This document shows, in pieces, positions 24,065 to 26,610 of a DNA stretch of 64,000 nucleotides. Under the pieces are notes generated by a model, which was not told the origin of the DNA, made no database searches, and saw nothing but the letters and a program-made list of their open reading frames with translations. The DNA lies in assembly GCA_013141415.1 (NCBI GenBank), contig JABFQY010000002.1:1-64000 (forward strand), in the 5' to 3' direction. The stretch's first letter is position 1; every line of letters starts with the position of its first letter. Both the position numbers and the translations under genes were made by a program. The stretch comes from Kiritimatiellaceae bacterium (GTDB taxonomy: Bacteria > Verrucomicrobiota > Kiritimatiellia > Kiritimatiellales > Tichowtungiaceae).

Positions 24065-24147
24065 ATTTCCGGAAACAAGTGATATCAAAATTTGGTGGCG
24101 TTTGGCGCGCCGGATATCCATCATACCGGCCCATTTTACAAAAACGC

Positions 24148-24182
24148 CCGGGTGGCGAAATCGGTAGATGCAAGGGACTTTC
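24148..24182 (+). pseudogene. 5' fragment of tRNA-Leu(UAA)
   Basis: 35 nt equal to nucleotides 1-35 of the intact tRNA-Leu at 24515, with one change (GATGC for GACGC in the D arm). It stops at the first anticodon base (U34). The sequence then switches to a TCCGCCTCCGGCGGA palindromic insert, followed at 24232 by AAAATC, which matches the start of the 3' side of the anticodon loop. Confidence 0.75.
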
Positions 24183-24248
24183 CGCCTCCGGCGGATCTGC
24201 CGACTTGTCCGCCGAAGGAGGAAGGCAGAAAAATCTTCAATTGGAAGA

Positions 24249-24509
24249 ATGAAAGAACTGGAACACAAACCAGCCGCTTACGCGCTTTGCGACGAAGATC
24301 AACGATGGATCTATAAGGGTTCAACCCGCGATCTGGCCGAACGGATTGCCGCCCATTTAGCTGGCAAGGTGCCGCGTACAAAAAGCAGGTTGCCTCTGAA
24401 ATTGGTTTACTGCGAGTACTTCGACAATTATACAGATGCTCGCCGTCGCGAAATCTGGATGAAGAGCGGCCAGGGGCGCGAATGGTTAAAGCAGAAGATT
24501 GAACAATAG
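24249..24509 (+). CDS. Small GIY-YIG nuclease-domain protein
   Basis: 86 aa, the size of a stand-alone GIY-YIG domain (UPF0213/YhbQ-like). The motif is degenerate: AYALCDEDQRWIYKGSTRDL, where a canonical member has GIY/VY...YIGxTxDL. The following RIAAHL, TKSRLPLKLVYCEYF and REIWMKSG match the family, including the catalytic Arg and Glu positions. Stand-alone members are mostly uncharacterised; related domains serve in homing nucleases and UvrC. The gene lies between a tRNA-Leu fragment and an intact tRNA-Leu 6 bp downstream, suggesting a mobile cassette targeting tRNA genes. A weak GGAAG precedes the ATG. Confidence 0.75.
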   Translation: MKELEHKPAAYALCDEDQRWIYKGSTRDLAERIAAHLAGKVPRTKSRLPLKLVYCEYFDNYTDARRREIWMKSGQGREWLKQKIEQ

Positions 24510-24514
24510 AATTT

Positions 24515-24601
24515 GCCCGGGTGGCGAAATCGGTAGACGCAAGGGACTTAAAATCCCTTAGTAGTAATACTGTGCGGGTTCGAGTCCCGCCCCGGGCACC
24601 A
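24515..24601 (+). tRNA. tRNA-Leu (UAA)
   Basis: 87-nt tRNA with a 7-bp acceptor stem (GCCCGGG / CCCGGGC), class II long variable arm, anticodon loop CTTAAAA giving anticodon UAA (24549-24551), T arm GCGGGTTCGAGTCCCGC and an encoded CCA (24599-24601). It appears intact and functional. Confidence 0.95.
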
Positions 24602-24622
24602 AAAGAGGAAGAAAAAAACCGA

Positions 24623-24733
24623 AAAGGACTTTCCGCCTCCGGCGGATCTGCCGTAGGCAGAAAAATCCCGCGACCGAAAGGTCGTGCGGGTTTCCGCCTG
24701 CGGCGGACAGGCAGAATCCCGCCCCGGGCACCA
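24623..24733 (+). pseudogene. 3' part of a tRNA-Leu broken by two small palindromic insertions
   Basis: Reading through: GGACTT, then a ~30-nt insert (TCCGCCTCCGGCGGATCTGC...GGCAGA), then AAAATCCC, a different variable arm (GCGACCGAAAGGTCG), TGCGGGTT, a second ~23-nt insert (TCCGCCTGCGGCGGACAGGC...), and finally TCCCGCCCCGGGCACCA. Removing both inserts leaves a plausible tRNA-Leu from the anticodon arm to CCA. The inserts fall in the anticodon loop after U34 and in the T loop. Confidence 0.65.
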
Positions 24734-26533: not shown

Positions 26534-26610
26534 GCATCTCTGCCTCCGAATATCCGCCGCAGGCGGAGCCTGCGAATAGAGTGAACGCGCTGGTTGGACA
26601 TTATTATTTC

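Follow-up and report, generated by a model that had tools for sequence, protein, structure and literature searches.

A tRNA-Leu gene split by a GIY-YIG nuclease gene, double hairpins and a second, whole tRNA-Leu belongs to a recurring class of putative homing-type cassettes in bacteria

A native tRNA-Leu(UAA) gene of a Kiritimatiellaceae bacterium is broken in its anticodon loop, and its two halves are separated by a double hairpin, a GIY-YIG gene encoding 86 aa and a complete tRNA-Leu(UAA). Analysis of the window, the whole stretch of 64,000 nucleotides, and comparison with other genomes show that this mosaic at 24146-24733 is real and that it belongs to a class of elements that recurs. The anatomy of the locus, the empty sites in relatives, the replaced tRNA, the recurrence, the rule that breaks fall in loops and the covariation of the hairpins are shown. 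We consider it likely that the mosaic represents a selfish, homing-type cassette, about 0.5 kb long, that has specialised in tRNA genes; cleavage, mobility, expression and the function of the hairpins are inferred. The locus is made up as follows.

24146-24733, plus strand: mosaic tRNA-Leu locus, native tRNA-Leu(UAA) split in the anticodon loop after U34
24146..24180, plus strand: 5' half of the original tRNA-Leu(UAA), 35 nt, last nucleotide U34 (repeat D2)
24181..24229, no strand: left double hairpin, about 19 extra nt in the loop of its second hairpin
24230..24235, plus strand: AAAATC, the opening hexamer of the tRNA 3' half, retained behind the left hairpin (repeat D5)
24249..24509, plus strand: GIY-YIG nuclease gene, 86 aa and stop (Pfam PF01541, E 1.4e-9)
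24515..24601, plus strand: intact tRNA-Leu(UAA) with CCA (ARAGORN; Rfam RF00005, 62 bits)
24624..24631, plus strand: AAGGACTT, short repeat of the 5' side of the anticodon stem (repeat D1)
24632..24661, no strand: right double hairpin, TCCGCCTCCGGCGGA-TCTGCCGTAGGCAGA
24662..24692, plus strand: displaced native tRNA-Leu 3' part, consisting of AAAATCCC, the variable arm GCGACCGAAAGGTCGT and GCGGGTT
24693..24715, no strand: third hairpin insert, inside the T loop
24716..24733, plus strand: tRNA 3' end with CCA (repeat D3)

The 5' half is identical to the intact tRNA at 34 of 35 positions, with a single mismatch, and its position matches that of the intact tRNA-Leu of a congener (G007). A short leader separates AAAATC from the start of the nuclease gene, the stop codon of this gene is only five bases away from the intact tRNA, and a purine-rich spacer of 22 nt leads from there to AAGGACTT, which is one G shorter than the native sequence. 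The hexamer AAAATC also follows the hairpin in five other loci (L022, L040, L047, L070 and L076). A direct repeat, AAGG(G)ACTT-hairpins-AAAATC (D1, D5), thus flanks the nuclease gene and the whole tRNA on both sides. The palindrome core occurs in the window four times without mismatch and five times with at most one, where shuffling expects 0.06 copies. A sequence-only reading had already listed the tRNA pieces, the inserts, the nuclease and the intact tRNA, all of which are present. Its start for the 5' fragment, 24148, was off by 2 nt, and its direct repeat AAGG(G)ACTT held but was incomplete, lacking the AAAATC of the left copy.

The gene downstream of the mosaic is present in 12 of the 14 genomes of the genus, counting the window genome. 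In G007, the same ferredoxin-like and UDP-sugar pyrophosphorylase-like genes flank a single uninterrupted tRNA-Leu(UAA); the upstream region with the ferredoxin-like gene is about 70% identical to that in the window, and the downstream gene is shared. Immediately before the same downstream gene, three further congeners (G003, G004 and G010) carry one intact tRNA-Leu or, where the contig stops, the 3' end of it. The variable arm of the cassette tRNA, TTAGTAGTAATACT, differs from the GCGACCGAAAGGTCGT of the outer 3' part and was found elsewhere only in the congener G012 among 388 genomes of the phylum. There, an intact tRNA with one mismatch in 87 to the cassette tRNA, at the last base, adjoins the same ferredoxin-like gene, without nuclease and without hairpin. 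The nuclease-free allele is hence seen in G007 at the same site, and in G012 at a site placed by its upstream neighbour only. With this, the uninterrupted tRNA-Leu that the earlier reading had proposed to look for in relatives has been found.

The displaced 3' part carries a GAAA-capped variable arm of a type that also occurs in G007 and G003. The tRNA in the cassette is of the G012 type, while the outer 3' part is capped as in other congeners, which means that a tRNA gene was disrupted and its role passed to one of a kind present in a relative. As to coconversion of flanking sequence from a donor, a feature of free-standing homing endonucleases, the comparison shows a cassette tRNA of the G012 type and a differing displaced 3' part but does not establish the direction of transfer. 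An anticodon-loop pattern search, on which our judgement of uniqueness rests, did not find another intact tRNA-Leu(UAA) in the window genome, which is 95.5% complete; a second GACTTAAAATC site in the genome was rejected as a tRNA. As a separate observation, three congeners (L011, L012 and L017) have a tRNA-Leu(UAA) upstream of the same downstream gene on the opposite strand, possibly through local inversion or independent relocation.

The layout recurs well beyond this genome. The closest relative of the nuclease, at 60% identity and in the same genus (L022), has an equal layout: a tRNA-Leu 5' half ending in ACTT, a different double hairpin, AAAATC, the nuclease and an intact tRNA-Leu, the last truncated by the contig end, with a degraded copy of the unit preceding the whole. 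Within the same order there are tRNA-Leu versions (L040, L041), one of which, L041, is a mirror form with whole tRNA, nuclease, GGACTT-hairpins and tRNA 3' half, and tRNA-Ser versions with the anticodons UGA (L043, L044) and CGA (L042). Among 84,980 species genomes scanned, members of Kiritimatiellota, Nitrospirota, Patescibacteria, Bacteroidota and UBP2 have the layout, at tRNA-Leu, Ser, Gln and Glu. A profile built from 17 members matched 86 of the 146 genomes of the class. It should be kept in mind that the relatives were collected with profiles of the nuclease family seeded by tRNA-associated members, and that most loci come from metagenome assemblies, although some lie on long contigs of near-closed genomes (G100, G042 and G116, for example).

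With known duplicates removed, the survey comprises 101 loci. An intact tRNA lies within 300 bp of the nuclease in 74 of them, each time on the strand of the nuclease. For comparison, the window has three tRNAs in 64 kb, and about 3% of its positions are within 300 bp of a tRNA. In about a quarter of the loci an intact tRNA is missing from the vicinity, in part because contigs end there; several of these loci have tRNA fragments or stop at a contig edge. Before duplicate removal, 51 of the 77 loci with an intact tRNA nearby carried a fragment of the adjacent tRNA, so that GIY-YIG genes abutting tRNA fragments, which had been suggested as a check, turned out to be the rule among relatives. The nuclease clades follow tRNA isotype (45 changes, against 64.7 when shuffled). 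Tandem arrays also occur: seven near-identical GIY-YIG units of 379 bp, every one with its own tRNA-Leu 3' half, stand behind one intact tRNA-Leu (L090, G116:C2:286500-291500), and triple arrays are present at tRNA-Asp and tRNA-Thr (L091, L092). At another locus (L073, 332-556), a tRNA-Leu that is complete on both sides of a hairpin block in its anticodon loop lies upstream of a GIY-YIG gene; the stretch read contains no intact tRNA.

The tRNA fragments are sharp-ended, and the breaks nearly always adjoin a tandem hairpin. Fragment ends fall in unpaired positions of the cloverleaf, that is in loops or arm junctions, in 55 of 59 cases, and the four ends inside helices compare with 23.3 expected. 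Some of the 59 breaks are not independent of each other; of the 39 distinct isotype/position combinations, however, 35 follow the loop rule. Breaks are mostly at nucleotides 34-36 in Leu, Ser and Tyr, in the T loop in Gln, Glu and Asn, and at arm junctions in Thr, Met and Arg.

Anticodon nucleases cut tRNA at nucleotides 34-36, and the nuclease could be imagined as a toxin of this kind, acting on tRNA, with the extra tRNA as antidote or decoy. The breaks at 34-36 in Leu, Ser and Tyr and the tRNA copy that is usually nearby would fit. Against this, the fragments are in DNA, other isotypes have ends in the D and T loops, and the intact copy equals, bar its last base, the ordinary tRNA of the cassette-free congener G012 and is no resistant variant. 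We regard a toxin as very unlikely.

U34/A35 is also a known site of group I introns in tRNA-Leu(UAA), and the hairpin sits within an anticodon arm that could otherwise be rebuilt, which brings to mind a relic of such an intron, hinted at in the earlier reading, or a split tRNA that is spliced. However, the inserts are 30-nt hairpins without an intron core, the halves enclose a complete tRNA where a group I intron would have its core between exons, and other isotypes break in other loops. An Rfam search of the window found no group I intron match. Splicing of a split tRNA fares no better, since bacteria are not known to have the archaeal splicing endonuclease. The intron hint is not supported, and we give this explanation very little credence.

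Another alternative is that tRNA genes merely duplicated in tandem and decayed, a cellular GIY-YIG gene being a bystander. tRNA genes often duplicate and decay, and UPF0213-type GIY-YIG genes are common among bacteria, which speaks for it. It does not account for the equal architecture across several phyla, for breaks that are almost confined to loops and have hairpins at them, for the shared strand in 74 of 74 loci, or for isotypes that follow the nuclease clade. The recurrence contradicts it, and we hold it to be highly improbable.

The double hairpin is a constant part of the element and not decoration; its function is undetermined. Folding energy beside the break is -30.3 kcal/mol, compared with -19.7 kcal/mol elsewhere in the same loci. 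The 15 members of Leu/Tyr type have two tandem hairpins of 15 nt, with the pattern YYYGCC-NNN-GGCRRR twice. In these, 100% of the cells are paired, two-sided changes occur in 6 of 12 pairs and the GCC/GGC core is invariant. Other isotypes have different stem sequences and retain the two-hairpin design. The window genome (G000) has four exact double-hairpin copies, including that of the mosaic, and a control with the reversed pattern gave none in all 14 genomes of the genus. Solo double hairpins outside tRNA genes are at C1:12733-12762, C2:281327-281356 and C5:206921-206950, and a single palindrome distant from tRNA genes is on the minus strand at 26553-26567 of the window. Solo hairpins and palindromes are frequently flanked by TT...AAA, with further cases in congeners (L135-L145).

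These solo copies are at the heart of the strongest rival, in which the mobile unit is the double hairpin itself, REP/MITE-like and inserting in hairpin-forming DNA such as tRNA arms, while the GIY-YIG protein is a transposase-like helper and the tRNA duplication a by-product kept by selection. Several observations favour it: the dispersal of solo double hairpins in the genus with recurrent TT-hairpin-AA flanks, the three hairpins at the mosaic locus, one of them solitary in the T loop, the pairing kept despite sequence change, breaks that track cloverleaf loops, and the match of the nuclease profile to SLX1, a structure-specific nuclease. On the other hand, no relocation event was caught, three genomes (G006, G009 and G012) have double hairpins without a GIY-YIG match to the window protein, although a distant helper is possible, and the hairpin alone leaves the carried tRNA halves unexplained. 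We consider this combined explanation unlikely. As solo hairpins are scattered at TT/AA sites in the genus, it is nevertheless possible that they move independently.

We now return to the nuclease of the proposed homing cassette. GIY-YIG is the sole Pfam match of the window protein, which has the catalytic residues of the domain, as a free-standing GIY-YIG homing endonuclease should; Y11, Y22, G24, R32 and E68 are invariant in 17 aligned members. Sequence matches of the family in the PDB are UPF0213 and SLX1, and an NCBIfam search of the window protein assigned no family. The 86-aa protein contains little beyond the catalytic domain and no visible DNA-binding domain, which is atypical of homing nucleases and counts against the homing reading. 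The cassette has no other protein-coding gene. Carriage by phage or plasmid was rejected, as searches with the window protein gave no match in a phage collection, no relative in viral contigs, nothing significant in PHROGs and a single weak match among plasmids.

We suggest the following model for the spread of the cassette. The nuclease would cut a cassette-free tRNA-Leu gene at the anticodon loop, and break repair, using the conserved tRNA halves as short homology arms, would copy the cassette in. Because tRNAs hardly change, such arms would be usable across species. The cassette would bring its own tRNA half (in the window a whole tRNA), so as to restore an intact host tRNA gene immediately, and the native 3' half would stay behind as a remnant. 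Since the nuclease gene is on the same strand as the tRNA, it would probably be transcribed via the tRNA's transcription. The double hairpin, in this model, marks the insertion junction and may be a recognition signal for the nuclease or a block to re-cutting. The loci come in two basic forms. In form A, a 5' half is followed by the hairpin, a short 3' stub, the nuclease and the whole tRNA; form B starts with the whole tRNA, after which come the nuclease, a short 5' stub, the hairpin and a 3' half. Features of both meet in the window, whose cassette holds an entire tRNA. In either form the tRNA is whole again because insertion at a tRNA loop brings a copy of one half, and by inference both match the expected outcome of a nuclease cut followed by break repair on tRNA-half arms. 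Repeated cutting of the restored tRNA could generate tandem arrays, and those observed are consistent with it by analogy with phage SegB (PMC13096335). A difficulty is that the restored tRNA retains the presumed target, and self-cutting must therefore be tolerated. The earlier proposal, in which a small homing-type cassette disrupts a tRNA gene and provides a second one, is thus supported by sequence comparison and remains likely, with cleavage and movement inferred; there are no cleavage, splicing or movement data. A bolder reading, which we regard as no more than possible, is that autonomous elements of bacteria across phyla consist of one small nuclease, one double hairpin and one tRNA half, use the cloverleaf structure of tRNA genes as their guide to insertion, restore the tRNA every time and shed their double hairpins as a second, non-autonomous mobile family.

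The closest precedent in logic is found in mobile-ORF gene hybrids of fungal mtDNA (Allomyces atp6; Glomus atp6, atp9, cox2 and nad3), in which an endonuclease ORF, of GIY-YIG type in Glomus atp9, brings along a foreign copy of a gene end, the gene is restored as a hybrid, and the native end is displaced downstream (PMC3630166). The cassette shares this combination of an endonuclease ORF with a foreign gene terminus that restores the gene and displaces the native one. However, the hybrids concern mitochondrial protein genes, whereas the cassette is in tRNA genes on bacterial chromosomes, its nuclease has only about 80 aa, and its junction carries a double hairpin. SegB of phages T4 and T6 is closest in enzyme and target: it is a free-standing GIY-YIG homing endonuclease among tRNA genes, without intron, and its motif RAWTSGAAC is the T-loop GTTCSAWTY on the opposite strand (PMC13096335, PMC2988022). 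T6 SegB has been shown experimentally to cut inside tRNA genes and to drive tandem amplification of tRNA and segB (PMC13096335). It differs in being phage-borne and intergenic, and the relevant sections do not describe split tRNA halves or hairpins (PMC13096335, PMC2988022). Closest in placement are intron-unlike insertion sequences encoding GIY-YIG in rRNA genes of CPR bacteria, mostly at the top or base of stem-loops; these are in rRNA genes, and the main text mentions no tRNA, restored copy or hairpin (PMC11270868). Double-hairpin elements of Allomyces mtDNA are tandem like those of the cassette and have been suggested to be mobile (Paquin et al. 2000, cited in PMC5910586), but they are mitochondrial, and no link to a nuclease or to tRNA loops is claimed (PMC5910586). 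Another nuclease aimed at a tRNA anticodon region, as that of the cassette is presumed to be, differs in being encoded in a self-splicing group I intron.

Judged by the defining features tested, the cassette belongs neither to the group I introns nor to integrase-driven islands or RAYT systems. An integrative element using a tRNA attachment site was rejected, as there is no integrase gene and breaks are in loops, not at the tRNA 3' end. For a REP/RAYT-type system, dispersed palindromes resembling gene-flanking ones do exist in the genus, but no Y1 (HUH) transposase was seen, the only Pfam match being GIY-YIG. The class as such has a fair chance of being new: bacterial tRNA-splitting GIY-YIG cassettes are not described in the literature searched, although most subscription journals and preprints were outside that search.

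A second arrangement deserves mention in its own right. At L003 (G000:C7:9974-10171), L028, L030, L032, L033, L036 and L118-L123, an intact tRNA is followed by a repeat-rich stretch, often starting with CCAGYCTTCG, and, 100-270 bp downstream, by a GIY-YIG gene with the same orientation; tRNA fragments were not detected at these loci. Possibly this is a related element targeting tRNA 3' ends. Because its tRNAs are intact and without fragments, tRNA adjacency alone is no proof of the homing mechanism. A further GIY-YIG gene of the window genome lies about 60 bp downstream of a tRNA-Ser(GGA) on the same strand (L002, G000:C2:112000-112224), and a tRNA fragment was not found there either.

The element class looks little-noticed; it appears to invade tRNA genes without killing the host, is present in several phyla and is nearly always marked by a double hairpin. 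Homing by a catalytic domain of about 80 aa and the role of the conserved double hairpin at the junction are now testable. If the homing reading is true, splitting essential, near-unchanging tRNA genes while returning a working copy would make this element a selfish design reduced to the minimum. It would account for the short GIY-YIG genes beside tRNA genes in many uncultured bacteria, and would be a source of tRNA gene fragments, duplicates and arrays, as well as a route by which a relative's copy replaces a tRNA gene.
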